Assembly: GCF_013839425.1 (NCBI RefSeq)
Contig: NZ_JACDNP010000007.1
Coordinates: forward strand, 62,001-126,000
Direction of reading: 5' to 3'
Length of the DNA stretch: 64,000 nt
From: Halorhabdus salina
Lineage (GTDB): Archaea; Halobacteriota; Halobacteria; Halobacteriales; Haloarculaceae
Position 1 is the first letter of the stretch. The number at the start of each line of letters is the position of its first letter. A program made the position numbers and the translations under genes. This document shows, in pieces, positions 25,786 through 46,517 of this stretch. The notes beneath the pieces were generated by a model. That model was not told the origin of the DNA, ran no database searches, and saw only the letters and a list, made by a program, of their open reading frames with translations.

Positions 25786-26526
25786 TCAGTTCGTCACCAG
25801 CCCGTCGTTGCGGTCCCAGGCGACGAACTGGGGGGCGAAGACGGCAAGTTCGGCGAACAAGCCCTCGACAGCATCTTCTCGGGCGACCGCCTCCTGAAAC
25901 GATTCGAGCCAGTCGAGTCGATCGAGGGCTTCACGCTGGCTGGCACGGATCGCCGATAGCTCTTCGGAAGTTGCGCCGTCTTGGTCGCCAGCCAACAGTT
26001 CGGCTTCCCGATCACAGAGCGCCCCCATGAACTCGAAGGCGACCGCGAGATGGTCGGGGACACCGTCGCCACGCTCCGGTTCGAATCCCGTGGCTGCATG
26101 GGCTTTCGCCGCCGCGGCGGCGGGATCGCCGAGGAACTCGCCGGCCTCGCCTTCCTCGTGATACGGCGAGTCCGACTCGAAGGACTCGCTTGGCTCGTCT
26201 GCGTGGGCCGACGCGAACGGCGGGACGTAGTGTGGCCCCGGGACAGCGAAGAGATTGTCGTAACCGATCCGGAGTCCCTCGCAGTCGAGGTCAGTGCGAT
26301 CGAGTGCGTCAGTCTCGACGTTTGCCGCGAGGGCGTCCGCAAGACGGACGAACGCACCGTCCTCGATCGCGGCGGCGAGCGTCTCCACGTCGCCGTCGAA
26401 GACCGCCGCCAGAAGCCCGTAGACCTCGGCCCTGGCACGGGCCACGGCGACCGCTTCGGACTGCTCGTCCGGATCTAATTCTGAGGCCTCCGTGTCGTGA
26501 GGGGTAGTTTCCGTCACGGCAATCAC
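25786..26526 (-). CDS. TorD/DmsD family molybdoenzyme chaperone
   Basis: This 246-residue all-helical protein is of the TorD type, a cytoplasmic chaperone that holds the catalytic subunit during cofactor insertion and checks its Tat signal. The hallmark is the P-x-x-x-x-Y-P-P region, GPHYVPPFASAH, followed by EFMGALCDREAELLAG. The GTG at 26526 overlaps the stop of the molybdopterin subunit gene as GTGA, fixing the start and showing translational coupling. It is the last gene of the four-gene respiratory operon. The assignment is reinforced by context. Confidence 0.88.
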   Translation of the reverse strand: MIAVTETTPHDTEASELDPDEQSEAVAVARARAEVYGLLAAVFDGDVETLAAAIEDGAFVRLADALAANVETDALDRTDLDCEGLRIGYDNLFAVPGPHYVPPFASAHADEPSESFESDSPYHEEGEAGEFLGDPAAAAAKAHAATGFEPERGDGVPDHLAVAFEFMGALCDREAELLAGDQDGATSEELSAIRASQREALDRLDWLESFQEAVAREDAVEGLFAELAVFAPQFVAWDRNDGLVTN

Positions 26527-29500
26527 CGTCGCCGGACCTCGACGAAGGCGTCGTACTGGGCGTTGCTGCCGCCGACGAGATCCGAGAGGCCGGTGTCCTC
26601 GAGGGTGTCGTCCAGCGGCTGGATGTGATTGATCGCGAAGCCGGCGTCCCGCCCCTTCGCCAGCCCTGCCTCCTCGGTCATCGGCTCGTCGAACTGGTAG
26701 GGCGTATGTCCGTCCTCGTCGACCGGCCCGCGGGTTTCGTCGTCGATCGTTTCGGCACTCGCGCCGTCGCCGGTTCGGCCCCAGCCCCACATCGCGCCGA
26801 CCACGCCCGGACGGATGCCGCTCGTGACCATCGCGATTCCCTCGACGGTCCGGCGACCGGCGTCGATTTCAATCGGATCGCCGTTCTCGACGTCGCGTTC
26901 CTCGGCGTCCTGCGGGTTGAGCCACAGCGGGTTCTCCGGCCGGGTCTCTCTGAGCCACGGGCTGTTCTGGGTCCGGTGCATCCCCTGGGTTCGTGGCTTC
27001 CAGTTGATGAGCCGAAGGGGGCGCTCGCGGTCGTCCTCGCTCGCGACGGCGGCCTGGACCTCGCCGTTGTAGTGTTCGACGTCGGCGACCTTCGGCAGTG
27101 GATCGAAGCGGTCGCCGGTGTAGGAGTGCTTCCCGTTCGGGACTACCTCGCTGTAGAAGTCCACGCGCGAGCCGAGTTTGTAGCGCATGTGCTCGCCGTC
27201 GTAGGCGTTGCTGTCGTCGAAGCGCTCGGCGTAATCGTACTCGTGGCCGTGCTCGGCGAAGCGATCGGAATAGTCCTCGACGGGTTCCTCGAAGCGCCCG
27301 CCACGATTGAGGACGGTGACGACCTTCCGCCACTCCTCGTCCGTGACGGCACCTTTCCAGTCCGTCACGTCGAACGCGTCGCCGAGTCCCTTCTCGTGGC
27401 TCGCCCGGAAGGCTGCGAGTTCGTCGTCGTCCGCGTCGGGGACAGGATCGCGGTCGTAGGCGATGTTCGCGGCGAGTTTCAGGTAGAAGTCCTCAGCCTG
27501 GTCGAGTTCCCAGAGATCGCCGTCGGCGTCCGGGATCGCGTCCGCGCCGACGCCGGGGAGGTCCATGCGCTTCCACATGTCGATGAGGACGTCCTCGAAC
27601 GGTCGGGCCTGGGGCACGACGTTGACGGCGGGCTGGCTGATCTTCTCGTCGGCCAGACGCTTGTTCGGGTAGGTACCGAAGTTCTCCCACCGCTCAAGAT
27701 AGGTCGGCTCGGGCAGGATGTAATCGGCATACTTGCTGGTCTCGCCGATCACCGTGTCGGAGGCGACGATCAGCGGAATCGTCTCCTCGTCCTGGAGGAT
27801 CGGCGGGATCTGATCGCCGCCTGCGACTGTCATAACGTGATTGTTCGAGTATGGCCGGATGAACAGCGCCTCGATCCCGTAGGGATATTCCTCAGCCGCG
27901 CTGCCGTACAGTTCCTGGGTCGCCTGTGGCGGCGCGACCGGGAACCAGGGCCGTTTCGCGGGGTACCCGCCGTCGCGTTCGAACAGCGAGGTATCCTCGT
28001 AGTTGACGCCCCCTCGGAGCAGCGGAATCCCCCACGGCGAGTTCCCGTCGGGGACTGTCCCGAGTTCGTAGCGGCCGGACATCGTGCTGTAGCCGGCGTA
28101 GGGCGTGATCTGGCCGCCTTTCCAGTCGTAATTGCCGATGAGGTGCTGGAGCGTAGCGATCGCACGCGTATTGTGGAAGCCGTTGCCGTGTTTCGCCGGG
28201 CCGCGGTAGGACATGATCGCCGCGCGCTTGCCGTGACTGGTAAACTCGTCGGCGATCTCCGCGATGGTCTCGGCGTCGACGCCGGCCATCTCGGCGTACT
28301 CCTCGAGTGTGTACTCGAAGACCCGATCGCGGTACTGGCTCCAGACGCTCTCGACGCGCGTTCCCCCGATCGTTTCCTCGACGTCCAGGACGGCCGTCTC
28401 GACCTCGCTCGCGGGACGGGGTTCGCCGGTCTCGGCGTCGATGACGACAAAATCGTCGGCTGTCTCGGCGTCCGCCTCGACGAGTTCGAGGTCTGCCGCG
28501 CGGGCCTTCGGTCCCGCGTCCTCCTCGACCATGACGAGGTGGGTCGCGTCGCTCCAGGTCGGTTCGTCGTCGGCGTGGGCGGCGTCCTGAGCGGGGTTCT
28601 GGAGATACTGCAGATCGTAGCGGTCGTGGTCGATGATCCAGCGCGCCATGCCGAGCGCGAGGGCCCCGTCCGCGCCAGGTTCGACCGGGACCCACGTCTC
28701 GGCCTTCTCGGCGGTCTTCGAGAGCCGGGGGTCGACCACGTCCATGCGCATGCCGTCTGCGATGGCGTTGGTCAACTTCGGGGCGAGCCAGGTCGGGCCC
28801 TTGTTGGCGACCATCGGGTTGGTCCCCCAGACGAGGAGGTACTCGGTGTTCTCGATGTCGGGGTACTGTCGTTTCTTCTTGGCGTCGTGGGAGCGGACGT
28901 TCCCCATGACGCTCGAAAACCCGCAGGTTCCGGCGTGGTGGGTGCTGTTGATCGATCCCAGGCCTTGCTGCCAGAGGCGCGCGCGGATGAAGTTCCGCCG
29001 GAACCCGCCAACGTCGACGATCTGGTTGGCCTTCGGCCCGAGGTCGGGGTGATCAGTGTCGATAAGGGCCTCGCCCCACTTCTCGTCGAAGGTGGCTTTG
29101 TCCATCTCGTCGGACTGGACGGCCTCCCAGTCGTTCATCACCTCGCCCTGGGGGGCATATCCCCACATCTCCCGAAGTCCGGGATGGTCGAGTTCGTCGT
29201 CACCCTCGACTATCTCCTCGATCGCCTGCTCCCAGGAGATCGTCTTCCACTGCTCGGAACCTCGCGGGCCGACGCGCTTCATCGGCTGGCGAACGCGATA
29301 GCTGTCGAAGGCCGTCTGGATACCGGCCTGGCCCTTCAGACAGATCCGACCGCCGGACAGCGACCATCGGTCGGTGTCGACGTCGCCGCTGCCGGCGACG
29401 TCACCCATCGCGACGTCGTTCGGGTCGCTGTCGTAGGGGACCTGGGCGAACGGCTGGGTGTTCAGGAACGAGTAGGGGTTGCCGGCGAGTTTGCGGACGA

Positions 29501-29825
29501 GCGAACTGTATCCGCCCGTCCCGCTCTCGTCGGCGAGTCTGACCTTGATCGGACAGAAGGTGTTGCACTGCCCGCAGGTCGTGTGGATCACGTCCTCGGC
29601 ACCGTACTCACCATAATCGTCGCCGACGTAGTGCTGCTGGCTGTCGGTCCAGAGGTCTTCAGTGTCGACGTCGACCGTGGCGGCACTCGCCGCGCCGATG
29701 AGGCCGATACTGCCGACTGCTTTCACGAGATCGCGTCGCGTCAGCGACGGTCCACCCCCAGACGCTGTGCCGTCGCTGTCTGTGTCCGATACGTCCGTCT
29801 CTGTGCTATCGCTGTCTGTAGACAT
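26523..29825 (-). CDS. Molybdopterin oxidoreductase catalytic subunit (DMSO reductase superfamily, TtrA/PsrA-like), Tat-exported
   Basis: This 1100-residue catalytic subunit of an anaerobic respiratory reductase has a twin-arginine signal, SLTRRDLVKAVGSIGLIGAA, near residue 30. A 4Fe-4S site follows (CGQCNTFCP, with the fourth Cys in GGRICLKGQ near 160). The molybdenum ligand is probably the cysteine in HHAGTCGFSS near 300. Further molybdopterin-binding stretches include LVWGTNPMVANKGP and MSYRGPAKHGNGFHNTRA, and the C-terminal domain contains WLNPQDAEERDVENGDPIEI. Size and cysteine ligand resemble tetrathionate, polysulfide or arsenate reductases. The substrate is unresolved. It is one base into the stop of the NrfD gene (TGATG). 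Confidence 0.88.
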   Translation of the reverse strand: MSTDSDSTETDVSDTDSDGTASGGGPSLTRRDLVKAVGSIGLIGAASAATVDVDTEDLWTDSQQHYVGDDYGEYGAEDVIHTTCGQCNTFCPIKVRLADESGTGGYSSLVRKLAGNPYSFLNTQPFAQVPYDSDPNDVAMGDVAGSGDVDTDRWSLSGGRICLKGQAGIQTAFDSYRVRQPMKRVGPRGSEQWKTISWEQAIEEIVEGDDELDHPGLREMWGYAPQGEVMNDWEAVQSDEMDKATFDEKWGEALIDTDHPDLGPKANQIVDVGGFRRNFIRARLWQQGLGSINSTHHAGTCGFSSVMGNVRSHDAKKKRQYPDIENTEYLLVWGTNPMVANKGPTWLAPKLTNAIADGMRMDVVDPRLSKTAEKAETWVPVEPGADGALALGMARWIIDHDRYDLQYLQNPAQDAAHADDEPTWSDATHLVMVEEDAGPKARAADLELVEADAETADDFVVIDAETGEPRPASEVETAVLDVEETIGGTRVESVWSQYRDRVFEYTLEEYAEMAGVDAETIAEIADEFTSHGKRAAIMSYRGPAKHGNGFHNTRAIATLQHLIGNYDWKGGQITPYAGYSTMSGRYELGTVPDGNSPWGIPLLRGGVNYEDTSLFERDGGYPAKRPWFPVAPPQATQELYGSAAEEYPYGIEALFIRPYSNNHVMTVAGGDQIPPILQDEETIPLIVASDTVIGETSKYADYILPEPTYLERWENFGTYPNKRLADEKISQPAVNVVPQARPFEDVLIDMWKRMDLPGVGADAIPDADGDLWELDQAEDFYLKLAANIAYDRDPVPDADDDELAAFRASHEKGLGDAFDVTDWKGAVTDEEWRKVVTVLNRGGRFEEPVEDYSDRFAEHGHEYDYAERFDDSNAYDGEHMRYKLGSRVDFYSEVVPNGKHSYTGDRFDPLPKVADVEHYNGEVQAAVASEDDRERPLRLINWKPRTQGMHRTQNSPWLRETRPENPLWLNPQDAEERDVENGDPIEIDAGRRTVEGIAMVTSGIRPGVVGAMWGWGRTGDGASAETIDDETRGPVDEDGHTPYQFDEPMTEEAGLAKGRDAGFAINHIQPLDDTLEDTGLSDLVGGSNAQYDAFVEVRRR

Positions 29826-31093
29826 CAGTGATCACCTCGATCGAGTGGCGTCAGGGGAAGCAGTTCCGCGCCGATCGTGTACAACAGGAGGCCGACCGCG
29901 ATCATGCCGATACTCGTCGCCCACTCCACGGCGGAGGGGAAGTACGAGCCGTGGGGAAGCCCCTTCATGACGGGAAGGATCTGTGGCGGGACGACGATGT
30001 TGAACCGGACGGCGATGATTCCAATGACGACGCTCAGGCCCGCAAGGACCATCAGCCACGGCGTCTCTCGCCACTCGCGTTTCGAGAGCATCACGAGCGG
30101 GAACAGCCACCCCATCCCGACCATGAACCACCAGAACGACCAGGACATCTCCCCGAAGAGAATGACTGCCCAGGTCTCGACCTCGTGGGGGTGGAGACTG
30201 GCAATGGCGATCAGCATCTCGATGCCCGTCAGCGCCGCGTCGACGACAATGAAGGCGGCCAGCAGGACGGCGAGTCGATTCAGCAAGTTCCGATCGACCG
30301 GCTCGTCGTCGAAGAGTTTCGTCCGGAGGACGTACAGCATCATGACCAGCGCCGTCCCCGAGAGGACTGCCGAGACGATGAAGATCACGGGGAAGAGGCC
30401 GCTGTTCCAGTACGGCCGGGCTTTCGAGACGGCAAAGAGAATGCCGGTCCCGCCGTGGACGAGGAAGATCGCCAGCGGGATGCCGAGAATGCCAGCCCGT
30501 GTGAGCCACTTGCGGTCGGTAGTGCGGGAGGCTTCGCTGGTCGAACGGCGGCCGAGCGTCAGCAGGCCGCTCAGACGGGCCCGGAGACCGGAACCACGTT
30601 CGGCGACGCGAGCGAGGTCGATCCGCATCGAGAAGTACAGTTCAGTGACGAGTACGGCGATGTAGGCAACGTAGGCGTGGACCTCCCAGGAAAGCGCGGA
30701 GGTGAGTTGTCGCCAGATGAAGGGGAAGAACATCCGGTCCATCCGGCCGAGGTCGACCCAGACGAACATGAGCGCGACCACCATGCTGATGATCGCCGCG
30801 AAGAGGGCGTCGCGGTCGACCCGGTGCATCCCGGAGACGCCGAAGACGTTCGCGAGCGTGCTCACCAGGAACGCCCCGGCCGAGAGGCCGACGAAGTAGA
30901 TGTAAAAGGCGACCCACGCGCCCCAGGGGGTCGTGCTCGTGAGGTTCGTACTCGCCATGCCGTCGGTGATCCGGAGGATCATCGCGGCCCCGCCAACGAT
31001 CAGGAGGACGGCGAGAGCGGCGTACCAGGCGACTCGCAAGCGGTTGTCGGTGAACCCCGGATCGAACTCGAAGTGTGAGGTATCTGTCGCCAT
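29825..31093 (-). CDS. NrfD/PsrC family quinone-interacting membrane subunit
   Basis: This 422-residue protein has about nine to ten membrane helices, of the NrfD/PsrC type, which takes electrons from menaquinol and passes them to the iron-sulfur subunit. Visible family features are WGAWVAFYIYFVGLSAGAFLVST in an early helix and an acidic pair near WVDLGRMDRMFFPF. It is in the middle of the operon, 3 bases after the iron-sulfur gene, and its TGA shares a base with the catalytic subunit ATG. No haem ligands are evident, as expected for NrfD-like anchors. Confidence 0.9.
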   Translation of the reverse strand: MATDTSHFEFDPGFTDNRLRVAWYAALAVLLIVGGAAMILRITDGMASTNLTSTTPWGAWVAFYIYFVGLSAGAFLVSTLANVFGVSGMHRVDRDALFAAIISMVVALMFVWVDLGRMDRMFFPFIWRQLTSALSWEVHAYVAYIAVLVTELYFSMRIDLARVAERGSGLRARLSGLLTLGRRSTSEASRTTDRKWLTRAGILGIPLAIFLVHGGTGILFAVSKARPYWNSGLFPVIFIVSAVLSGTALVMMLYVLRTKLFDDEPVDRNLLNRLAVLLAAFIVVDAALTGIEMLIAIASLHPHEVETWAVILFGEMSWSFWWFMVGMGWLFPLVMLSKREWRETPWLMVLAGLSVVIGIIAVRFNIVVPPQILPVMKGLPHGSYFPSAVEWATSIGMIAVGLLLYTIGAELLPLTPLDRGDH

Positions 31094-31096
31094 GGG

Positions 31097-32128
31097 TTAT
31101 TTGAGGTAGTAGACGTTCGGATCGGTTCCCTCGCTCTCCTTGAGCTGGAACGATCGCGTCGAGTCGGCCATCTCGGCGACGTCACTGTCGGGATCGTTCA
31201 GATCGCCCATGTTGCGGGCGTCGCCGACGCAGGTCTCGACACAGGCCGGTTCCTCGCCGCGCTCGAGCCGGTGGGTGCAGAAACTGCACTTTCGGACGTT
31301 GCCGATCGGTGACTTACCATCCTCTCGCTTCCCGCGATCGACGCCGTACTCGGGGCTGGTAATCTCGCCGGCTTCCTCGACCTCGTCGTCGTAGTTCTCG
31401 CCGAAGTCGAAGTACCGCGCGCCGTACGGACACGCGATCATACAGTACCGGCATCCAATACAGCGGTCGTAGTCGATGTTGACCACGCCGTTGTCCATCT
31501 TGTAGGTCGCGCTGACGGGACAGACCTGGACGCATGGTGGTTCCTCGCATTGCATGCACGGCCGCGGGACGTTTGTTCGGGTAACGTTCGGGAATTCGCC
31601 GTGTTCCTCTTCCATGACGACGTTGTAGGAGACGCCCGGTGGGGTGCGGTTCTCGGCCTTGCAGGCGACCGTACAGGAGTCACACCCGACACACTTCTGG
31701 AGGTCGATAACCATCCCCCAGCGCGCTTTTCGGTCCTCCGGAGCGGCTCCTCCCTCGACGCTCTCGGCGGCGTCGATCTCGCAGGCGACTGACTCCATCG
31801 AGCCGATGGTACAGGACAGCGAGTCGGCCGTCCCGGCGTCGATCGTCTGGTCGGTGCTCTCGATAGACGGGTTGGGGGTTTCGCGATAGGCGTCGCCGAA
31901 CTCCTGTTCGGCGGCCGCGTCGTATTTCTCCCAGTAGGCCTCGGCCGAAATTTCGCCCTGGGAGACGCGCTTTGCGTCCTCGGCCATCGCGATCCCCAAT
32001 TCGGTGTCGTGATCCGTCTTCGCGAGTTCCTCGCGTGGATCGGCCCGTTCCGTCTCGACCATCGCGTCCATCGACGCCGTCTCGACTGCAGGGACGCCCG
32101 GCTGAACGTCGTCGTTGGAGCTACTCAT
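31097..32128 (-). CDS. Four-cluster 4Fe-4S ferredoxin subunit (TtrB/PsrB-like)
   Basis: This 343-residue electron-transfer subunit has four cysteine clusters: CVGCDSCTVAC, CMQCEEPPCVQVCP, CIGCRYCMIACP, and CSFCTHRLERGEEPACVETC. Each CxxCxxxC or equivalent is complete, so four 4Fe-4S clusters are expected. Residues 1-135 precede the first cluster, much longer than in DmsB/PsrB; they are acidic with a helical segment (GEISAEAYWEKYDAAAEQEFG). There is no Tat signal, so export would rely on the signal of the catalytic subunit. First gene of the operon; GGGTGA sits about 7 bases before the ATG, consistent with a leadered mRNA. Confidence 0.9.
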   Translation of the reverse strand: MSSSNDDVQPGVPAVETASMDAMVETERADPREELAKTDHDTELGIAMAEDAKRVSQGEISAEAYWEKYDAAAEQEFGDAYRETPNPSIESTDQTIDAGTADSLSCTIGSMESVACEIDAAESVEGGAAPEDRKARWGMVIDLQKCVGCDSCTVACKAENRTPPGVSYNVVMEEEHGEFPNVTRTNVPRPCMQCEEPPCVQVCPVSATYKMDNGVVNIDYDRCIGCRYCMIACPYGARYFDFGENYDDEVEEAGEITSPEYGVDRGKREDGKSPIGNVRKCSFCTHRLERGEEPACVETCVGDARNMGDLNDPDSDVAEMADSTRSFQLKESEGTDPNVYYLK

Positions 32129-32224
32129 CGCGGGTCACCCTTCTGGTTGCTCGGACAGCCGCTCGCTCCGACAGTGGCTCGGATCATCACGTAGACGTAC
32201 GAAAGACACCCCTGAGAGCGTCGT

Positions 32225-32294
32225 CCCAATACTGTTTGCCTCCGCACCCCGGACCGAATACCCGGTATAACCACCCACCCAATACTCTTTGGCC
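32225..32294. repeat. Direct repeat pair between divergent operon and Bat-type regulator (putative operators)
   Basis: Two related 16-17-base sequences, CCCAATACTGTTTGCC (32225-32240) and CCCAATACTCTTTGGCC (32278-32294), lie 53 bases apart, five helical turns. Both follow CC-CAATACT-x-TTTG, and the second is preceded by an A to give ACC-N11-GGC, close in form to the ACC-N10-GG(T/G) boxes of the rhodopsin locus. They lie in the only shared regulatory space of the reductase operon and the divergent HTH_10 regulator, so they are good candidates for its binding sites (inference). Confidence 0.55.
32263..32271 (-). promoter_or_regulatory. TATA box of the reductase operon
   Basis: On the minus strand GGTTATACC is centred near 32267, about 20 bases downstream of the centre of the second CCCAATACT repeat. 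Transcription would start near 32240, giving a leader of about 110 bases before the iron-sulfur gene; its ribosome-binding site fits a leadered mRNA. The first repeat would then cover the start site. Confidence 0.5.
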
Positions 32295-32357
32295 GGCTCG
32301 ATTGCGGTCCCGTTCAAGGTTCGTTCGAGCGCGGCTCAGCGGTCGGAGACATCCTTG

Positions 32358-32368
32358 TGATATATACG
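32358..32368 (+). promoter_or_regulatory. TATA box of the Bat-type regulator gene
   Basis: TGATATATACG contains TATATA centred 27-28 bases before the ATG at 32391, a standard leaderless haloarchaeal promoter. It decides the start codon of the regulator gene. Confidence 0.7.
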
Positions 32369-32390
32369 CCGTGACGCCCGAATACGTGCC

Positions 32391-34208
32391 ATGAATCTCG
32401 TCATTCTCGCCTCTATCGTCCTGCGGGTTCTCGGCGTGGGGTACTCGCTGGTGTTGCTCTACCGGTCCAACGACCGGCGATTCGCGTTTCTGACGGTCAT
32501 GCTCTCGTTGATGGCGACACGACAGATCCTTTCCGCACAAGGGTCGACCGACCCGATCGAGGAACTCCCCGGGCTGGCCGTGAGTATCCTTGCGGTGCTC
32601 ACCGTCTACTACCTCTCGAGTTACGTCGTCGAGGAACAGCGCATCACCGAGCGCTTGCGAGGATTTCAGAAGGCGATCGAACACGCCGGTCACGCCATCT
32701 TCCTGACGGACACGGACGGCACGATCGAGTACGCCAATCCGGCCGTCAAAGCGGTGACGGGTCACGACCCGGACGAAGTCGTCGGGGAGAACCCGCGGCT
32801 GTGGAAGTCCGGCGAGCACGACGAGGACTTCTACACCGAGATGTGGGAGACAATCGCCGCGGGATCGATCTGGGAGGGAGAGATCATCAACCGCCGGAAG
32901 TCCGGCGACCTCTGCTGGGTCGACATGACGATCGCACCGATCACCGGCGAGGACGGCGAGGTCGAACGGTATGTCGCCGTCGAGCGCGACGTAACCGAGC
33001 GTAAGGAACGCGAGGTCCGCATCGCCGACCAGAACGACCGGCTCGAACGGCTAAACAACACGAACGAGGTATTGCGCGACGTCAACCGCGAACTCGTCGC
33101 GGCCACGTCCCGACAGGAAATCGAGCGCTCGCTGTGTGATCGGTTCGCCCGCTCACCACTGTTCGCGGCAGCGTGGGTCGGTGACCCTCGACTCGTCGAC
33201 GACAACGTCAACGTCCGAACTCGTGCCGGGATCGACGAGAGCACACTCGATACCCGGATCGACGCGACGGCCAACTATCGGCGCGTGATCGATAATGTCC
33301 TTGACAGTGACGAGCCGGCATTCGTCGACGCTGACGCGACGCGACTCGACAATCCGCTGAACGCGACGGCGGTCGTGATTCCGTTGTCGTATCAGGACGC
33401 CGATTACGGCGTGCTCGTCGTCGAATCCGCGACCGAGGACGCCTTTGCGGCGATCGACCGCGGGGTGTTCACCGAACTCGGCTCGACCGTGGGTGATGCG
33501 GTCAATGCCGCGGAGAGTCGACGCACGCTTGCGGCAGCGGAGGTCACGGAACTGGAGTTCCTCGTCGACGGCGCTACGGATCCACTGGTCGATCTCTCTG
33601 CGTCTCTCGGATGCTCGGTCGATCTCGAACATGTGGCTGGTGATCAGGGGGACCCCATCGCGTACGTGTCTGTCACGGGAGCCGATCAAGCGTCCGTTTC
33701 GTCGTATTTTGACGATGTCGAATCCCGTGACGGACGACCGCTGTGTGAGTACGACGAGCGGTGTCTCGTCCGTCTCGTCGTCGACGAGTCGGCGATCGTC
33801 CCGACGCTCGCCAGATACGGCGCGACGGTGACCGGACTTTCAGTCACCGATGGGCACGGCCGGATCCGTGCCGAGGTTTCCCGGTCAAACGATATCCGAT
33901 CGGTCGTCGAGGCCGTCCAGGCGGCCCATTCCGAACTCGAATTGCTCGCCCAGCGAGAGCAAGAGCGTGAGGCCGAGCCGGGGACGGCGTTCCAGTCATC
34001 CTTCGAGGAGTCACTCACCGATCGGCAGTTGGAGGCCGCCCGGACGGCGTTCTTCGCGGGCTTCTTCGAATGGCCCCGGGAGACCAGCGGGGAAGATGTC
34101 GCTGCGATCATGGACATTACCCAGTCGACGTTCACTCAGCACCTGCGGACGGCCCAGCGAAAACTGTTCGCGGCCCTGTTCGAGGACAATGCGGTCTCTA
34201 ACACTTGA
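32391..34208 (+). CDS. Membrane-linked PAS/GAF/HTH_10 regulator (Bat/DmsR-like)
   Basis: This 605-residue regulator has three N-terminal membrane helices (about residues 3-23, 30-48 and 58-77). A PAS domain follows (about 85-215; AIEHAGHAIFLTDTDGTIEYAN through VAVERDVTERKE), then a GAF-like domain (about 240-385), a Bat-type middle domain, and a C-terminal HTH_10 (LTDRQLEAARTAFFAGFFEWP...STFTQHLRTAQRKL). The PAS lacks the LOV cysteine. Bat-like DmsR controls DMSO reductase genes in other haloarchaea, so this divergent gene is the likely regulator of the adjacent operon. Membrane anchoring of a DNA-binding protein is unusual. A leaderless promoter supports the start. Confidence 0.85.
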   Translation: MNLVILASIVLRVLGVGYSLVLLYRSNDRRFAFLTVMLSLMATRQILSAQGSTDPIEELPGLAVSILAVLTVYYLSSYVVEEQRITERLRGFQKAIEHAGHAIFLTDTDGTIEYANPAVKAVTGHDPDEVVGENPRLWKSGEHDEDFYTEMWETIAAGSIWEGEIINRRKSGDLCWVDMTIAPITGEDGEVERYVAVERDVTERKEREVRIADQNDRLERLNNTNEVLRDVNRELVAATSRQEIERSLCDRFARSPLFAAAWVGDPRLVDDNVNVRTRAGIDESTLDTRIDATANYRRVIDNVLDSDEPAFVDADATRLDNPLNATAVVIPLSYQDADYGVLVVESATEDAFAAIDRGVFTELGSTVGDAVNAAESRRTLAAAEVTELEFLVDGATDPLVDLSASLGCSVDLEHVAGDQGDPIAYVSVTGADQASVSSYFDDVESRDGRPLCEYDERCLVRLVVDESAIVPTLARYGATVTGLSVTDGHGRIRAEVSRSNDIRSVVEAVQAAHSELELLAQREQEREAEPGTAFQSSFEESLTDRQLEAARTAFFAGFFEWPRETSGEDVAAIMDITQSTFTQHLRTAQRKLFAALFEDNAVSNT

Positions 34209-34236: not shown

Positions 34237-34758
34237 TCAGAGAACGCGCCGCTGGCAACTCCCACAGAGGGTCTGTTCCTTGACATCTACTTGACGGACG
34301 CGGGGCGAGAAACTCATGACACAGCGCTTGTTGTCACAGTGTTCGAGGCCCAGTGTATGGCCGATCTCGTGGACGACCTCCTTGCGGACACGTTCGGCGA
34401 ACACCTCCGAGGAAGACTTATTCGAGAGGCCGCCATCCGAGGACGTCTGGAGTCGGTGTGTCGAGATGACGCTGCCGCTGCCGTCCAAATACGCGAGCCC
34501 GAACACATAGTTGCGGTTTCGATAGAACAGGTCTCTGGCTGTAATTGCGACGTTCTTCTCGCCCACACCCACCCGCTTTGCAAGGTCGATGAACTCCTCG
34601 GCACGGTACTGCTCACGATCGGGGTCGTGCGCGCCGGCGGGGACTGATCGGGCATCGTGGACGCTGACGTCACACTCGAAAACAGAACGCAACCCGGCGG
34701 AAGCTTCCCGCTTGACGACCGCGGGGAGGTCACCAACCGGCACGATGTCCACGTGCAT
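34237..34758 (-). CDS. amzA: Archaemetzincin
   Basis: This 173-residue zinc peptidase of the archaemetzincin family has the extended zinc site [14 protein letters not shown] (about residues 128-141), followed by a second part, CVM, and a C-terminal zinc-binding knuckle (TLCGSCQRR). The four cysteines downstream of the HExxH motif are diagnostic. Substrates of archaeal members are not known. A TTTTTAAGC element on the minus strand (34782-34790) is centred 28 bases before the ATG, so the start is leaderless. It is divergent from the HAD phosphatase. Confidence 0.94.
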
Positions 34759-40106: not shown

Positions 40107-40122
40107 ACCCAATCAGTTGGGT
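40107..40122 (+). promoter_or_regulatory. Bat-box-like palindrome upstream of brp
   Basis: ACCCAATCAGTTGGGT is an imperfect palindrome centred 44 bases before the brp ATG. It fits the Halobacterium bop upstream activator form ACC-N2-ACTAGTT-N-GG in length and flanks. Related boxes occur at 45468, 45588 and 48787. A TATA box after it is weak. Binding by Bat is inference. Confidence 0.6.
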
Positions 40123-40158
40123 TGCCGATTGAGGCCGGTTCCGTCCCACTATTGGCCC

Positions 40159-41235
40159 ATGGGACAGACCGCTCACGGGCGATTCGCGTCTGCGTCTCGA
40201 CTGCGAGTGGACGAACCGATTGCGGTGACCGTCTCGCGGGTCGCACTCGCTTCGATCGCCGCCGCCTTCGCGGTGGCTGCCGCTGTCGGGATTCGGCTGG
40301 GAATGGAGGCTCAGGCCGCGATCTATCTTTTCGGGATGGTCGCGCTAAACCTTCCCCACGGCGGGTACGAACACTTCAACAACATCCGCCAGCGCGGCCT
40401 GACCTTTCAGTGGCGGTACGTCGCCGGGTACCTGGCGCTGATCGGGGCGTTCATCGGCCTGTTTATGGTTGCGCCGGTGGCGGGACTGACACTGGCAATC
40501 GTCGTCGCGGTCCTGAAAGGCGGCTACGGTGGCCTCCACGTCATGGACGCTGTGACTGGCAGTGGTCACCTCCGGTCGGCATCACAGCGACACCTCGCCG
40601 CACTGGTCCGTGGCGGCACGGTCATGGCGGTCCCGATCGTCTTCTGGCCGGGCACGTTCGAGACGTTCAGTGCGTACATGGTCAGCATCTTCGATCCGGG
40701 CGCACTCGCGCAGTTCAGTCACCTCTTCGGGGTGACGCGCCCGCTGATCGCCGTCGGGTTCGGGACGCTCGCTGTCGCTCACTTGTCCTGGGGATACCTG
40801 GGGCGGGACGGCAGCGGAGCCTGGCTCCTCGACGCCGCCGAGACGCTCCTGTTGGTCGGGTACTTCGCGGTCGTCCCGGTGGTCGTGGCGGTCGGGCTGT
40901 ACTTTCCCTTGTGGTACTCGCTTCGACAGACCGGGAGGCACGTGGCCGTCGAAGACGACATCCCGGCCGAGGGCGGAATCCTCGCTGGATTGCTCGACAA
41001 CGACGATCCCCGCGTCGTGGCGATGACAGCCTGGGGCGTGTTGATCGTCGGGGCCGTCGCGACCGCGACGGTCGTCGGCGCGATCTATCTGGCTGCGACC
41101 CGACCACTGGCCGGCGCACCGCTGCTTGCGGGCGGTGTGGCGTTCTGGAGTATCGCGATCAGCATCATCGCGCTGCCACACGTACTCGTCGGATCGTTTT
41201 TAGACCAGGGCCGCGGTATCTGGTATGTGCCTTAA
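40159..41235 (+). CDS. brp: Beta-carotene 15,15'-dioxygenase, Brp/Blh family
   Basis: Brp/Blh cleaves beta-carotene to two retinals, supplying the rhodopsin chromophore. The 358-residue membrane protein has about eight to ten helices. Family histidines are in NLPHGGYEHFNN (near residue 75), GGLHVMDAV (near 130), WYSLRQTGRHVA (near 255) and ALPHVLVGSFLDQ at the C-terminus; four such His positions coordinate the iron in this family. crtI follows directly, and a Bat-box-like palindrome lies upstream. The start at 40159 (MGQTAHG) is preferred to an open upstream extension. Confidence 0.92.
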   Translation: MGQTAHGRFASASRLRVDEPIAVTVSRVALASIAAAFAVAAAVGIRLGMEAQAAIYLFGMVALNLPHGGYEHFNNIRQRGLTFQWRYVAGYLALIGAFIGLFMVAPVAGLTLAIVVAVLKGGYGGLHVMDAVTGSGHLRSASQRHLAALVRGGTVMAVPIVFWPGTFETFSAYMVSIFDPGALAQFSHLFGVTRPLIAVGFGTLAVAHLSWGYLGRDGSGAWLLDAAETLLLVGYFAVVPVVVAVGLYFPLWYSLRQTGRHVAVEDDIPAEGGILAGLLDNDDPRVVAMTAWGVLIVGAVATATVVGAIYLAATRPLAGAPLLAGGVAFWSIAISIIALPHVLVGSFLDQGRGIWYVP

Positions 41236-41236
41236 C

Positions 41237-42820
41237 ATGCGCAAGGAATCTCCGCTTGCGGGCGAGACGATCGACGTGATCGGCGGCGGCTTTGGCGGCC
41301 TCACCACGGCCTGTTACCTGGCTGACGCCGGTGCTGACGTGACCGTCCTCGAACGCCAGGACCGCCTCGGTGGCGCGGCAAACGTACTCGAAACCGACGG
41401 GTTTCGCTTCGATACCGGTCCCTCTTGGTATCTGATGCCGGATGTGTTCGAACGGTTTTTCGACCATTTCGGCCACGACCCAGAGGACTTCTACACCCTT
41501 CACCAACTGGATCCGCAGTATCGGGTGTTCTACCGCGATAGCGATCCAGTGCCGGGTGCCGGGACGCCCTCCGACGACGATATCGATCCTCCCTGTGACT
41601 GGGTGACGATCACCTCCGACCTCGGGCGGACGCGCCGAACCTTCGCAGCCTACGAGGCCGGCGGCGGCGAGGCCTTCGACGCCTATCTCGCGGAGGCCGA
41701 ACACACGTACGACGTGGGGATGGAGCACTTCGTCTACGAGGATCGGTCTCGCTTCCGGGACCTCATCGACCTCGACGTCGTTCGGCTCGGTCCGGGGCTG
41801 AAAATGCTCGGATCGATGCAGGATCACGTCGCCTCCCACGTCGAGAACCCGAAACTCCAGCAACTCCTGCAGTACACGCTCGTGTTCCTGGGGGGCGCGC
41901 CACACAACACGCCGGCGCTGTACAACCTCATGGCCCATGTCGATTTCAATCTCGGCGTCTACTATCCCGAGGGCGGGATGTACAGCGTCGTGGAGGGGCT
42001 GGCCGACCTCGGCGAGGAGCTCGGCGTCACGTACCGAACGAACGCCGAAGTGACCGATCTCCAGTCGACGACGACCGGCTTTGCACTCCAGACCAGCGAG
42101 GGGCGGCGTCGGGCTGACAGGGTTGTGTCCAACGCTCCACAGGCTCACGTCGAACGCGAGTTGCTCTCGCCGGGCAACAGGGATCACGCCCTCGATCACT
42201 GGGACGACCAGACCTACGCGCCCTCCGCGCTCCTGCTGTATCTCGGCGTCGAGGGCGACGTCGGGCCGCTGGCCCATCATTCGCTGGTGTTCCCCGACGA
42301 TTGGGACCCCCATTTCGAAGCGATTTTCGAAGACCCAGCTTGGCCGGACGATCCCGCCTACTACCTCGCGGTGCCGTCCCTGACCGACGACGGGGTCGCG
42401 CCCGACGGCCACCATGCGGTGGTGGCGCTCCTGCCGATCGCTCCGGGACTAGACGACACGCCAGAGCGTCGCCAGGAGTACCGTGATCTGGTTCTAGACG
42501 ACTTGGCCGACAACGTCGGCGTCGACATCCGCGATCGGATCGTCTACGAGTCTTCGATGTGCGTCAGTGACTTCGCCGAGCGGTTGAACTACCCGCAAGG
42601 GACGGCACTGGGCCTTGCCCACACGCTATTCCAGACTGGCCCGATGCGACCGTCCCACCGAGCCAAATCCGTCGATGGGCTGTACTACGTCGGCGGGTTC
42701 ACGTCGCCGGGGATCGGCGTGCCGATGGCGTTTATCAGTGGCCAGCACGCCGCCGATGCCGTTCTCGAAGATGCGCGGGGGAAGCGTGACCTGCTGTCGA
42801 GACTTGGGATTGCGCGCTGA
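41237..42820 (+). CDS. crtI: Phytoene desaturase (CrtI family)
   Basis: CrtI introduces double bases of conjugation into phytoene to make lycopene, upstream of lycopene cyclase. The roughly 527-residue flavoprotein has the dinucleotide fold IDVIGGGFGGLTTACYLADAG and VLERQDRLGGAANV at the N-terminus, the substrate-binding GFRFDTGPSWYLMPDVFERF, and the C-terminal FAD segment GLYYVGGFTSPGIGVPMAFISG. The start is either ATG at 41237, just after the brp stop, or ATG at 41225, which overlaps brp by 11 bases; both give the same fold. It is co-transcribed with brp. Confidence 0.92.
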   Translation: MRKESPLAGETIDVIGGGFGGLTTACYLADAGADVTVLERQDRLGGAANVLETDGFRFDTGPSWYLMPDVFERFFDHFGHDPEDFYTLHQLDPQYRVFYRDSDPVPGAGTPSDDDIDPPCDWVTITSDLGRTRRTFAAYEAGGGEAFDAYLAEAEHTYDVGMEHFVYEDRSRFRDLIDLDVVRLGPGLKMLGSMQDHVASHVENPKLQQLLQYTLVFLGGAPHNTPALYNLMAHVDFNLGVYYPEGGMYSVVEGLADLGEELGVTYRTNAEVTDLQSTTTGFALQTSEGRRRADRVVSNAPQAHVERELLSPGNRDHALDHWDDQTYAPSALLLYLGVEGDVGPLAHHSLVFPDDWDPHFEAIFEDPAWPDDPAYYLAVPSLTDDGVAPDGHHAVVALLPIAPGLDDTPERRQEYRDLVLDDLADNVGVDIRDRIVYESSMCVSDFAERLNYPQGTALGLAHTLFQTGPMRPSHRAKSVDGLYYVGGFTSPGIGVPMAFISGQHAADAVLEDARGKRDLLSRLGIAR

Positions 42821-42868
42821 GATCGACAGCCCTGACCTTTAGGGCGATCGTCCGTGTACGTCCGTCTC

Positions 42869-44881
42869 ATGAGCGAGTCAGCCGAGGGTCGTCATCTCCT
42901 CCGGGTCGGGGACAATCCGGATGGTCCCCCGCTGCCGGCCGACGCGCTACGATCCCGGGCAGGGACCGTAGCGGTGGACACTGAACGTGATTTCCAAGCC
43001 GCCCGCTCGCAGGTCGAATCCGGGGCCGTCGACTGCGTGATCGCCGACCACTCCGCGGATGGATTCGACGGGTTGTCGCTGCTTGAAGCGATTCGACAGA
43101 CGCGCCCGAACTTTCCGGTGTTCTTGCTCCCGACGAGTGACGACGGCGACGTCGCACGGCGCGCCGTCAGGGCCGACGTGACGGCATTCGTCCCGCAGTC
43201 CTCGCCGGATCTTGCGACGCAGGTTCTCGAGGAACTCGACGACGCCGTGCCCGCCACCCACGAAGATCGGATCAGGATGCCGATCCACGACCGGACGGCA
43301 ACCGAGGAGCAACGTCTCAAAGAGCGCGCCTTAGACGAGGCCCCGGTCGGGATCACGATCGGCGATGCGACCGAGCCGGACGAGCCCCTGATCTACGTCA
43401 ACGACTCCTTCGAGGCAATCACCGGCTACGACAAGGAGGAGGCGATCGGCGTCAACTGTCGATTCCTGCAGGGCGAAGACACCGACGCCGAGACGACCGT
43501 CGAGATCCGCGAGGCCGTCGAAAATGAAGCGCCAGTGTCGGCCGAACTATTGAACTACCGAAAAGACGGTTCGACGTTCTGGAACAACCTGGCTATCTCG
43601 CCGATCCGCGACGACGACGGCGACGTGACCAACTTCGTCGCCTTCCAGCAGGACGTGACCGAGCGCAAGGAAGCCGAAGCCGCGATCCGGGAGGAACGAG
43701 AGACGCTCCGTCGGTTGCTCGATCGCGTCGAGGGGCTCGTTGGTGACCTCTCTGAAATCCTGGTCCGGGCGAACAATCGGACCGAGATCCACCAGATGAC
43801 GGTCGATCGAATCGGCTCCGGTGAGGAGTTCGACCGGGCCTGGATCGGCACGTACGATCCGACCGCCCACACCGTCTCAATCGCGGAGTATAGCGAGGAC
43901 GGTCCCGAGGCCGTGAGGATTGCTCTCGACGAGGGTCGACCGGGCGCTGATCGTATCGCGGCGGCCCTCGAAACGGATTCGATTCAGCGACTCGGTGACG
44001 CGACGACACTCGACCCACCAGTCGGCTTCGACTCGGGGCAGGCTGGGTCGGGCGTGCTCATTCCGCTCTCCTATCGCCGGACGACCTACGGCGTCCTTTC
44101 GGTTTTCGACGCCGACCCGGCGGCCTTTGACGAGACTGAACGGGCGATTCTGGGCGCGCTCGGTCGGGTGATCGGCGCGGCGATCAACGACGTCCTCAGC
44201 AAGCGGACGGTCACGACTGACGTCACGATTACGATTGAAGTCGATCTCCAGGACCCGTCGCTGTTCCTCGTTAACCTCGCGAATACGGCGACCGACCCGA
44301 TCGTCTATCGTGGTACCCAGGTCCACGATGACGGGCGCGTCGCGTTCCTGTTTGCCGTCTCCGAAGCCGACGAAGCCGCAGTCCTCGGGGCCGAGGACCG
44401 CTACGAGGCCGTCACGGACGTGTCAGTCCTCTCGACGGCCGACGGGGAGTGTGTCGTCGAGATCGTCACCGCTGGCGCAGAGTTCGTCGACGCACTCGCG
44501 AGCTACGGGGCAGATGTCGAGACGATCTCGATCGACAACGAGAGCGTTCGCGTCCGCTTTACCGTCGCTACCGAGCAAAATGGCCGGGCGATCGTCGAGG
44601 AACTCGAAACGGCCTACGACGTTGTCGAACTGATCGCGTATCACGAGTCCGAGGACGCCGACGAGACTCCGCGATCGTTCGCGGCAGCTGTCGAGGCCGA
44701 GCTGACCGATCGGCAACTGACGGCACTGAAAAAGGCCTACACGAGTGGATTCTTCGAGTGGCCCCGCCAGTGTGAGGGTGAGGATCTCGCCGAATCGATG
44801 GATGTGGTTCCCTCGACGTACTATCAGCACCTCCGGACGGCCGAGAAGAAACTCATGCGAGCGTTCTTCGAAGACGACTAA
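42869..44881 (+). CDS. bat: Bacterioopsin transcriptional activator Bat with LOV domain
   Basis: Bat activates bop and the retinal genes in Halobacterium. This 670-residue homologue has a degenerate receiver-like N-terminus (residues 10-125) and a PAS domain (about 145-270) of LOV type: GVNCRFLQG with Cys197, the position that bonds flavin, plus LLNYRKDG, FWNNLAISP and FQQDVTE. It continues with a short coiled coil, a GAF domain (about 295-445), a Bat middle domain and a C-terminal HTH_10 (LTDRQLTALKKAYTSGFFEWP...STYYQHLRTAEKKL). It follows crtI by 48 bases. ATG at 42869 is preferred to GTG at 42854. Blue-light sensing is inferred from motif. Confidence 0.92.
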   Translation: MSESAEGRHLLRVGDNPDGPPLPADALRSRAGTVAVDTERDFQAARSQVESGAVDCVIADHSADGFDGLSLLEAIRQTRPNFPVFLLPTSDDGDVARRAVRADVTAFVPQSSPDLATQVLEELDDAVPATHEDRIRMPIHDRTATEEQRLKERALDEAPVGITIGDATEPDEPLIYVNDSFEAITGYDKEEAIGVNCRFLQGEDTDAETTVEIREAVENEAPVSAELLNYRKDGSTFWNNLAISPIRDDDGDVTNFVAFQQDVTERKEAEAAIREERETLRRLLDRVEGLVGDLSEILVRANNRTEIHQMTVDRIGSGEEFDRAWIGTYDPTAHTVSIAEYSEDGPEAVRIALDEGRPGADRIAAALETDSIQRLGDATTLDPPVGFDSGQAGSGVLIPLSYRRTTYGVLSVFDADPAAFDETERAILGALGRVIGAAINDVLSKRTVTTDVTITIEVDLQDPSLFLVNLANTATDPIVYRGTQVHDDGRVAFLFAVSEADEAAVLGAEDRYEAVTDVSVLSTADGECVVEIVTAGAEFVDALASYGADVETISIDNESVRVRFTVATEQNGRAIVEELETAYDVVELIAYHESEDADETPRSFAAAVEAELTDRQLTALKKAYTSGFFEWPRQCEGEDLAESMDVVPSTYYQHLRTAEKKLMRAFFEDD

Positions 44882-44934
44882 CCCACTCTCTGTGAGCGAT
44901 GACTTCCCCGACTGCCACCGCCTTCCGGTGGTTA

Positions 44935-45357
44935 TTATTCAAGATAGGACCGGAGCGTCTGCAGTGTCGCCGTCACCGCTTGCTCGATTCTCGTTTCGAT
45001 GACACTCGTCGGGATGGCATCGAGGACGGCCGCCGGCAGCCGGACCGCCATCGAGCAGGTTACCCGCGTCCCGTTGTCAGTGGCGGCAAGCCGATACCGG
45101 ACCGTTCCATCAAGTGCACCGGACAGCGAGCGGACGAGCCGGGTCGGTGGGCGACGGAGGCTGTCGGTCAGCTGGCCCGAAAGCGTGACGCCGGCGAGTT
45201 CGTATTCATACCGGGTCGTAAACCCTTCCTCTGGCGGCGTCGCGCTGACGGTGATCAGGCCGGGCGTAATCTTCACCTGGTTTCGGGGGTCAGCCAGGAA
45301 TTGGAAGCCCGTCCTGGGGGGCACGCCGACCGTGATCGAAGCTTCGTGTGTGAACAC
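44935..45357 (-). CDS. SRPBCC (START/polyketide cyclase-like) protein
   Basis: This 140-residue protein has the helix-grip fold of the SRPBCC superfamily: ASITVGVPPRTGFQFLADPRNQVKI at the start, a curved sheet (TRYEYELAGVTLSGQLTD, GTVRYRLAATDNGTRVTCSMAVRL) and a long C-terminal helix. Such proteins hold hydrophobic ligands, so carotenoid or retinal handling is conceivable given the neighbours, but that is inference. GTG at 45357 has GGTGAT five bases upstream; a TTG at 45363 is less likely. It is convergent with bat, and its upstream region contains a Bat-box-like palindrome. Confidence 0.82.
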   Translation of the reverse strand: MFTHEASITVGVPPRTGFQFLADPRNQVKITPGLITVSATPPEEGFTTRYEYELAGVTLSGQLTDSLRRPPTRLVRSLSGALDGTVRYRLAATDNGTRVTCSMAVRLPAAVLDAIPTSVIETRIEQAVTATLQTLRSYLE

Positions 45358-45467
45358 TTCCAATCACCACTCCGAGGTGGATACACGCGGCGAGCGGTCG
45401 GTGTCCCGTAACGACACCTGGCTCGACCGCTATACGCTGGTTCGTTCGTCACCAAGTTGTAGCTTGT

Positions 45468-45483
45468 ACCGAACTGATTTGGT
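45468..45483 (-). promoter_or_regulatory. Bat-box-like palindrome between SRPBCC gene and crtY transcript
   Basis: The plus strand reads ACCGAACTGATTTGGT, one base different from the box of the rhodopsin gene. On the minus strand the centre reads ATCAGTT, as in the brp box, with an AT-rich TACAAGCTACAAC about 16 bases further on, which points toward the SRPBCC gene. It is 163 bases from the plus-strand ORF at 45646, so that gene is a less likely target. Confidence 0.55.
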
Positions 45484-45587
45484 CGCGTGTCAATCGGTAC
45501 TGACCACAGTTGCAGTGGCAGTGCATCGTCAGCAGCGGATTCAGAACGCGCCCACACACTTTGGCGTCGAAGCGGCTGCGTTACCGA

Positions 45588-45615
45588 CCCCAATTGAGTG
45601 GGTGGACTTTTGAGG
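45588..45615 (+). promoter_or_regulatory. Degenerate Bat-box-like element and TATA for the crtY transcript
   Basis: CCCCAATTGAGTGGGT (45588-45603) matches 12 of 16 positions of the rhodopsin-gene box. It is followed by GACTTTTGAGG (45605-45615), a TATA-like element. The spacing box-TATA-ATG (about 14 and 36 bases to the ATG at 45646) is almost the same as at the rhodopsin gene (13 and 36). This supports transcription starting just before the small ORF. Confidence 0.42.
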
Positions 45616-45645
45616 CGTGATGCGGACGTAGCTGTACTATCAGCC

Positions 45646-45768
45646 ATGGAAAACCGAGCGACCGTCGCGATAGGGACAGATGACTGGGTCTGCCTGACAG
45701 TGCTGAGCGTTCCAGGGGACGACGCTCGGACTGTCCTGTCGGTCCCGGTGGGGGCGATATGGTCCTGA
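45646..45768 (+). CDS. Candidate 40-residue leader protein overlapping crtY
   Basis: This ORF starts MENRATVAIGTDDWVCLTVL and ends in VGAIWS, with a stop inside the crtY start region (10-base overlap: the crtY ATG at 45759 lies within its last codons). Codon third positions are mostly G or C. A TATA-like element lies 36 bases upstream and no other start is closer, so a ribosome on this mRNA would meet this ATG first; it could couple or attenuate crtY translation. It has one cysteine and no recognised domain, and does not look like Brz or Brb. It may still be a chance ORF. Confidence 0.45.
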   Translation: MENRATVAIGTDDWVCLTVLSVPGDDARTVLSVPVGAIWS

Positions 45769-46517
45769 CCTACCTGCAATTCACGCTGCTGTTCGTCGGC
45801 GTGCCGATTGTCGCCCTCGCCACAGCCCTGTTCGTCACTCATCGGTTTCATCCGGCACAGCTTGCAGGCACGGGGCTGTTACTCGGCGTCGCCCTCGTCT
45901 ATACGCTCCCGTGGGATGCTTATCTTATCCGGACGGGCGTCTGGGAATACGGCTCGATCGTCGTCGGGCACGTCGGAGCCGTCCCCTACGAGGAAGTGCT
46001 GTTCATCGGGGGCCAGACCGTGTTGACCGGGCTGTGGACGGCGATGGTGGTCCGGCCAGACGGGGCGGGATCGTCCGTCACGCCACGGCAGCGAGCAGCT
46101 GGCGTCGTGGGTGGGCTACTCGTCGGTGCGCTGGGCCTGCTCGCTCTGACCGCGACGACGTTCCGGTATCTCGGTGCAATCTTGGCGTGGGCAGGGCCAG
46201 TGCTTGCCCTTCAGTGGGGGTTTGGCTGGCCCGTCCTGCTGGCAAGAGGGCGTGGCGTATTGGGCGCGCTGGCAGTGCCCACGGCGTATCTCTGGGTGGC
46301 CGATCGGCTGGCAATCGGCCTCGGGCTGTGGACGTTCTCGCCGACGTACACGACCGGCGTGACGTTGCTCGGCCTCCCGATCGAGGAAGCGATGTTCTTC
46401 CTGATGACGAATCTCTTCCTCGTCCAGGGACTGGTCCTGTTCGGCTGGGTCGTCGAACGCGGCGCGCTTCCGTCACTCTCGGCGCTCCTTGGAACCGTTC
46501 CGGAGCGAACGAAGTGA
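45759..46517 (+). CDS. crtY: Lycopene beta-cyclase, CrtYcd membrane type
   Basis: The enzyme cyclises lycopene to beta-carotene, the substrate of Brp. This 252-residue membrane protein carries two tandem lycopene cyclase domains. In the first, YTLPWDAYLIRTGVWEYG and GAVPYEEVLFIGGQTVL contain the family's paired acidic residues. In the second, VADRLAIGLGLWTFSPTYTTG and LPIEEAMFFLMTNLFLVQG repeat the pattern. About six to seven helices are present. The ATG at 45759 overlaps a 40-codon ORF. It is convergent with the MFS gene, 61 bases apart. Confidence 0.93.
   Translation: MVLTYLQFTLLFVGVPIVALATALFVTHRFHPAQLAGTGLLLGVALVYTLPWDAYLIRTGVWEYGSIVVGHVGAVPYEEVLFIGGQTVLTGLWTAMVVRPDGAGSSVTPRQRAAGVVGGLLVGALGLLALTATTFRYLGAILAWAGPVLALQWGFGWPVLLARGRGVLGALAVPTAYLWVADRLAIGLGLWTFSPTYTTGVTLLGLPIEEAMFFLMTNLFLVQGLVLFGWVVERGALPSLSALLGTVPERTK

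Follow-up and report, generated by a model that had tools for sequence, protein, structure and literature searches.

A Bat-like regulator with a predicted membrane domain and its probable paired operators upstream of a Ttr-like reductase operon in Halorhabdus

Background

The closest described counterpart of the system considered here is Bat of Halobacterium with the upstream activating sequence (UAS) of the bop promoter. In the portion available of one account, Bat proper has an N-terminal REC-like domain, and in some Bat-like proteins REC is replaced by other domains (PMC5847659). DmsR and NarO are further HTH_10 proteins tied to operons of molybdoenzyme respiration; DmsR is described as a positive regulator of dms in the accessible part of PMC1447603, and both proteins are presented as having neither PAS nor GAF domain in the section available of PMC11218638. 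Haloarchaea carry many HTH_10 paralogues; a mapped operator was described only for Bat in the literature searched. In this study, we analysed a divergent gene pair, namely a Bat-like regulator gene and a putative reductase operon, together with the region between them, in a Halorhabdus genome of 2.86 Mb (contig NZ_JACDNP010000007.1; the window, that is, the whole stretch of DNA analysed, comprises 64,000 nt). No account of this regulator or its operators was found in the literature searched, most subscription journals being outside its scope.

The locus shares with the Bat/bop system the PAS-GAF-BAT-HTH_10 core of the regulator, the CC-N10-GG frame of the operator, the geometry from box to start and the promoter signature. 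It differs from that system in having a hydrophobic domain and no detected REC domain, two in-phase boxes with the interior AATACTGTTT, a reductase operon and a small open reading frame (ORF), and from DmsR and NarO in combining a complete sensor half with an N-terminus that is hydrophobic. With moderate confidence, we read the regulator as a membrane-tethered, redox-responsive one-component activator of a Ttr-like operon, which would act through two cooperatively bound operators on a transcript beginning with a leaderless launch ORF.

Genomes and loci compared

Among 392 genomes of the order, 40 (counting the source genome) contained a match to the iron-sulphur (Fe-S) subunit of the operon at E ≤ 1e-60; five other Halorhabdus genomes (G075, G119, G143, G195 and G316) gave no match at this threshold. 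Thirty-eight of the 39 other loci were fetched, one on a short contig (G185) being omitted. A divergent, near full-length orthologue of the regulator with 46–86% identity was present at 37 of the 38 fetched loci; these 37 and the window constitute the 38 loci used for boxes, promoter and launch ORF. Because several loci come from close relatives (e.g. L047/L048, L054/L055, L058/L062, L065/L067 and L066/L068), the locus counts are not independent. The counts obtained with strict box patterns are too low, since variant boxes escape such patterns. Rhodopsins were present in 83 of 146 genomes, and 30 of those loci (L075–L104) were compared; gaps of 8–12 were scanned upstream of 31 rhodopsin genes, the window's own included.

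Conservation and spacing of the operator pair

Two repeats, CCCAATACTGTTTG at 32225–32238 and CCCAATACTCTTTG at 32278–32291, lie on the plus strand with a start-to-start distance of 53 bp. They are the sole exact matches to CCCAATACTNTTTG in the genome, where about 0.03 would be expected from base composition and the reversed-pattern control gave 0. A first-pass annotation of this DNA had reported the repeats at this distance and had named their lack of conservation in relatives with the same gene pair as a refuting outcome; the pair was confirmed, and both boxes were found as direct repeats at all 38 loci (consensus ACCRATACTGTTTGG). L070, the locus with the most distant Fe-S protein, has no regulator and no boxes.

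The start-to-start spacing was 51–53 bp at 31 loci and 42 bp at seven, with no value between, corresponding to five or four helical turns. Five loci of the 42-bp class belong to genus g7, one to g67 and one to g70, and the one-turn change therefore seems to have occurred more than once; upstream of the reductase operon, the g70 locus (L043 in G275) carries three boxes spaced 42 + 42 bp, and each gap contains a TATA-like stretch. Helical phasing of this kind is what cooperative binding on one helix face would require. The outer CC..GG was intact in box 2 at 36/38 loci and in box 1 at 21/38, with mean mismatches of 1.58 versus 2.21, and we infer that a strong distal site may help a weak proximal one.

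With a strict one-box pattern, 43 matches were obtained across the 40 genomes, of which 34 lie at the locus; the reversed control gave none. The nine off-locus matches comprised two in copied cassettes described below (G213 and G236) and seven others (G101, G039, G282, G252 twice, G350 and G145). A strict pair pattern gave 24 matches in the 392 genomes, namely 20 at the locus, three in copied cassettes and one that was set aside (L167 in G084), which seems from a sequence reading, made with no tRNA finder, to run into a tRNA gene; the reversed control again gave 0. When up to three mismatches to ACCAATACTGTTTGG were allowed in the source genome, 40 sites were found versus 12 for the reversed control, and the sole two-mismatch site outside the locus (C3:49399) reads as signal-peptide codons of a lipoprotein gene. 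Of the seven other off-locus matches to the one-box pattern, the single sites ACCGATACTGTTCGG in three genomes of family f7 (G252:C1:2973 and 3457390, G350:C15:759350 and G145:C1:4033857) may be further targets or chance occurrences.

Upstream of the rhodopsin genes, a box lay 39–44 nt before the ATG, as chosen by script, in 21 of 31 cases, 17 of which fitted CC-N10-GG best and four (L091, L094, L102 and L103) another gap. The window's own bop box, TACCGAATTGATTTGGTA, is at 48786–48803 on the minus strand. The retinal/carotenoid region at window positions 40117–48820 contains a brp/blh-type dioxygenase, a CrtI-type desaturase, a Bat-like gene (42854–44881) and the rhodopsin gene. The reductase operator, CC-AATACTGTTT-GG, has the same CC-N10-GG frame as those 17 of 21 positioned boxes, and bop interiors often hold ACTAG or ACTGG; because the frame is common to both, the operator classes differ in interior and not in length. 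The proposals that the repeats are bop boxes with one extra base, and that Bat paralogues have split their operators by spacer length, thus do not hold.

The recognition helix reads Q-S/T-T-F-x-Q-H-L-R in the 30 of 38 orthologues that are alignable and PSTYYQHLR in the window's Bat, and so appears to differ in step with the operator interior. It might be argued that a different HTH_10 paralogue, such as Bat, binds the boxes in place of or together with the neighbouring regulator: the source genome holds 15 HTH_10 domains, Bat and the regulator share STxxQHLR, and their operators share one frame. However, the boxes co-occur with the regulator and are missing along with it at L070, and S/T-T is preceded by Q in every alignable orthologue and by P in the window's Bat, so we consider binding by a paralogue improbable.

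Promoter signature and predicted start

When 17 bop-type promoters were aligned on the box, they showed C7 in 12/17, T8 in 13/17, A/T10 in 17/17, mostly A/T at 11–13, A/T26 in 17/17, A27 in 16/17, T36 in 15/17 and G37 in 16/17, with an ATG soon after. The 38 reductase promoters aligned on box 1 showed C7 in 38/38, T8 in 36/38, A/T10 in 38/38, T26 in 36/38, A27 in 25/38, T36 in 30/38 and G37 in 38/38. A matrix was built from the bop set, from which the four boxes with another gap and the 10 rhodopsin genes without a box at this position were excluded, leaving about 10 effective sequences. On box 1 it scored +1.5 at register 0, the scores at 24 other registers lay between −12 and −29, and none of 5000 joint position permutations reached the value of register 0; on box 2 it scored −16.3, which 112 of 5000 permutations reached. 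Box 1 is accordingly predicted to be the UAS, with the operon starting at G 32188. With a CC-N10-GG box about 40 nt before a predicted leaderless start, the promoter would be classed in silico as bop-type. A conserved C/G-rich, ACGCTCW-like stretch at 32213–32221 (positions 4–12 after box 1, including the invariant C7) occupies the place of the bop TATA.

The operon TATA box that the first-pass annotation had placed between the repeats is present as a TATA-like element, and it probably does not direct the main start, the signature being anchored on box 1. Were this element by box 2 the true promoter, box 2 would be the activator site, transcription would start inside box 1, and a regulator bound there would act as a roadblock in repression or feedback. 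Box 2 indeed has A/T at position 10 in 38/38 loci and is A/T-rich at 8–11, the place of the bop TATA, and it lies nearer the consensus than box 1. Against this, box 2 is followed by no TA at 26–27 and no TG at 36–37, its matrix score falls far below that of box 1, and the spacing between box 1 and the downstream ATG is kept at loci in which box 2 has shifted by one turn. A start governed by box 2 is therefore judged unlikely, and box 1 is retained as the predicted UAS.

Reductase operon and putative launch ORF

The gene order Fe-S, NrfD-type and molybdopterin subunit is that of ttrBCA, which encodes tetrathionate reductase. Among curated models, the Fe-S subunit is nearest DsrO (198.3 versus a cut-off of 200), followed by ArrB and TtrB, and the catalytic subunit does not pass the TtrA equivalog model (405 bits versus a cut-off of 1750). 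The operon is predicted to encode a Ttr-like molybdoenzyme reductase. A haloarchaeal branch of the Ttr family has been described in sulfur-respiring haloarchaea, and Halodesulfurarchaeum strains with a Ttr-family enzyme showed no growth on tetrathionate plus formate, as stated in the part of that account available (PMC5437934).

An ATG follows box 1 by 38–40 nt at all 38 loci (39 nt at 34) and opens an ORF of 13–25 codons. The stop codon overlaps the Fe-S start at 35 loci, as ATGA at 32 and GTGA at three; at L033, L038 and L043, the small ORF extends slightly into the Fe-S gene. At many loci, GGTGG or a similar sequence occurs within its final codons and is a candidate Shine-Dalgarno sequence. 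Codon constraint was assessed with eight ORFs of equal length from family f4; with the last five codons omitted, 161, 227 and 152 pairwise differences were counted at codon positions 1, 2 and 3, respectively. A functional, conserved peptide is unlikely because third positions show no excess, and Rfam returned no known RNA element at gathering score within 31900–32500. As far as the available part of Huber et al. reports, haloarchaea rarely use Shine-Dalgarno sequences for de novo initiation and often for reinitiation, and leaderless transcripts make up 72% of those of H. volcanii (PMC6728339). Since reinitiation in haloarchaea uses Shine-Dalgarno sequences and leaderless transcripts are common, these features fit the reading that the small ORF is probably a leaderless launch ORF, which hands ribosomes to the Fe-S gene by reinitiation and does not encode a conserved peptide.

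Sensor and predicted membrane domains of the regulator

A BAT domain followed by a C-terminal HTH_10, together with PAS and GAF domains, places the regulator in the Bat-like class, its GAF assignment being at the cut-off (GAF_2 28.3 bits, cut-off 28.6; GAF_3 27.2 bits, cut-off 27). Pfam agrees with the PAS, GAF-like and HTH_10 architecture given in the first pass and adds the BAT domain, which had gone unmentioned. No REC domain was matched by Pfam at E ≤ 1e-3 in the regulator, and the hydrophobic domain stands in its place. The nearest Protein Data Bank (PDB) chains to the PAS domain are 3ewk (E 2.5e-38, across two PAS stretches) and 2gj3 (E 5.6e-20), which we take to be MmoS and NifL, presumably both redox sensors that bind FAD; the redox or oxygen cue suggested earlier gains support from this proximity, and no evidence for the quinone sensing suggested alongside it emerged. 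An archaemetzincin-family protease gene (34237–34758) lies directly 3′ of the regulator gene on the opposite strand.

Across 38 orthologues, the 19-mers at residues 4–22, 31–49 and 61–79 rank as the top three by mean hydropathy (1.92, 1.36 and 1.60; next 0.98). At a Kyte-Doolittle threshold of 1.4, three N-terminal segments were obtained in 12 of 38 orthologues (including the window's), two in 24 and one in two, and an extra hydrophobic segment outside the N-terminus was obtained in 10. The controls were run at a different threshold, 1.6, and gave eight segments for NrfD, none for the Fe-S protein or the window's Bat, and one for the molybdopterin subunit. AlphaFold, supplied with three sequences, placed helices at residues 2–26, 29–49 and 55–97, with a pLDDT of 55 and a pTM of 0.31. 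Positively charged loops face the cytoplasmic side of membranes (positive-inside rule); the RSNDRR loop would therefore be cytoplasmic, with the PAS, GAF and HTH domains inside. The three membrane helices proposed in the first pass correspond to a hydrophobic, probably three-helix N-terminus with a weak second helix, and the non-membrane segments named beforehand as a refuting outcome did not emerge.

The hydrophobic domain matched no Pfam family above cut-off (best E 0.045) and had no second copy in the source genome at E ≤ 1. It was found in 45 of 392 genomes (E ≤ 1e-4), comprising 39 of the 40 Fe-S-positive genomes and six of the 352 others. Outside the regulator, it heads PAS proteins that look like histidine kinases on a sequence reading (L224, L225, L227, L228, L229 and L230); these occur in five of the six genomes without an Fe-S match and, as a second copy, in G352, whereas the remaining genome (G011) has a contig that breaks off inside the PAS domain. 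Membrane input domains are common in PAS histidine kinases. Being shared by such kinases and the regulator, the domain looks like a membrane input able to feed a kinase or a DNA-binding output. A buried dimerisation bundle in a soluble regulator without an anchor could also be envisaged, as helix 2 is weak and conserved charged residues (R12, D28, R30, R44 and E58) lie in or beside the segments. However, the hydrophobicity of segments 1 and 3 matches that of several segments of the NrfD control, and the same domain heads the kinases; we regard a soluble regulator as having little probability and a membrane-tethered one as the better reading.

Copies of the promoter region in relatives

G213 (L165) and G236 (L169) each carry a second box pair at a distance of about 3.6 kb from that of the operon, and a further pair of this kind occurs in G132 (L166), a genome with no Fe-S match at E ≤ 1e-60. 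In these copies, the boxes are 51–52 bp apart, and downstream of them come the start signature known from the operon (shortened by one base in G132), a small ORF (12–15 codons) and a remnant of the Fe-S subunit, 73 aa from its N-terminus. Ferredoxin_N is still recognised in the G213 remnant (E 7.6e-8), which is followed by a gene with a match to Oxidored_molyb (E 5e-12) and then by one that is MobA-like over a 60-aa piece (20.5 bits, under cut-off). The ORFs of G236 are near-identical to those of G213, on which Pfam was run. The remnant and downstream ORF of G132 have diverged, and in this genome the promoter has outlived the coding fragment. We tentatively suggest, at somewhat less than even probability, that the intergenic region is a portable cassette copied as a unit, in which in-phase operators for the tethered activator, a bop-type promoter with conserved ACGCTCW in place of the TATA (perhaps for an alternative TBP/TFB pair) and a leaderless launch ORF serving solely for reinitiation would be combined.

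Table 1. Features of the regulator and reductase locus in the window (aa, amino acids; nt, nucleotides)
Feature	Position	Strand	Basis
Molybdopterin catalytic subunit, nearest TtrA	26523..29825	-	Pfam; TtrA model
NrfD-type membrane subunit	29825..31093	-	Pfam PF03916 E 2.5e-37
Fe-S subunit	31097..32128	-	Pfam Fer4, Ferredoxin_N; NCBIfam DsrO/ArrB/TtrB, all under cut-off
Putative launch ORF, 20 codons + stop; TGA stop overlaps Fe-S ATG	32125..32187	-	ORF comparison
Predicted start of transcription at G37, counted from box 1	32188..32188	-	G37 in 38/38 loci; 16/17 of bop set
Predicted TA element, positions 26-27 after box 1	32198..32199	-	Promoter alignment
Box 1 (operon-proximal) CCCAATACTGTTTGC, taken as UAS-position operator	32225..32239	+	Promoter signature anchored on box 1
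TATA-like GGTATAACC between boxes	32264..32272		Position 10 from box 2 is A/T at all 38 loci
Box 2 (distal) CCCAATACTCTTTGG, repeat in direct orientation, 53 bp from box 1	32278..32292	+	Conservation
TATA-like GATATATAC, presumed regulator promoter, 24 nt 5′ of regulator ATG	32359..32367	+	Sequence reading
Regulator, 605 aa, hydrophobic N-terminus-PAS-GAF-BAT-HTH_10	32391..34208	+	ORF, Pfam, divergent orthologues
Hydrophobic domain at the N-terminus; residues 4-22, 31-49 (weak), 61-79	32400..32627	+	Hydropathy, AlphaFold
PAS domain, residues 101-203	32691..32999	+	Pfam PAS_9 E 1e-19; nearest PDB chains 3ewk, 2gj3
GAF domain, residues 239-371, borderline	33105..33503	+	Pfam GAF_2/GAF_3
BAT domain, residues 384-535	33540..33995	+	Pfam PF15915 E 4e-32, 111.6 bits, above cut-off
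HTH_10 DNA-binding domain, residues 542-593	34014..34169	+	Pfam PF04967 E 8e-19, 67.6 bits, above cut-off

Discussion

In the mechanism that we propose, the PAS domain would hold FAD and, with the membrane domain, read the redox state. The active dimer would bind the stronger distal box and, cooperatively, the weaker proximal box, which lies on the same helix face at the position of the bop UAS; TBP/TFB would thereby be recruited although the TATA of the promoter is poor. Transcription would start at G 32188, ribosomes would load on the leaderless launch ORF, and the Fe-S gene would be reached by reinitiation through the Shine-Dalgarno-like sequence and the ATGA overlap. Several points weigh against this reading. 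The small bop set had been chosen for its box and distance, and box 2 also scores somewhat above its own permutations; positions 11–13 after box 1 are C/G-rich, unlike the A/T-rich bop promoters, and a better TATA-like element adjoins box 2. Many of the 38 loci are closely related, the second membrane helix is weak, and the confidence of the AlphaFold model is low.

Haloarchaeal histidine kinases share the same membrane-type domain followed by PAS but have a kinase output, where BAT-HTH_10 is found here. ToxR and CadC are membrane-bound one-component regulators, and a membrane-tethered DNA-binding domain would be common to them and the present protein; their domains and domain order are unrelated, whereas three helices, cytoplasmic PAS and GAF domains and an archaeal promoter are predicted here, and the likeness is one of working only. 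Termination-reinitiation coupling, as treated in the part available of PMC6728339, likewise involves an ATGA overlap and a Shine-Dalgarno-like sequence before the second gene, but the first ORF here has only 13–25 codons, lies at the predicted transcription start and gives no sign of a conserved peptide.

With its regulator, the operators known from 38 loci and the predicted start, the locus would allow the specificity of Bat paralogues to be examined through a few base and residue swaps. If the proposed reading is true, the system would provide an archaeal example of a protein that binds DNA from the membrane, and a tiny leaderless ORF would start a Shine-Dalgarno-dependent gene in organisms where the Shine-Dalgarno sequence is seldom used for first initiation.

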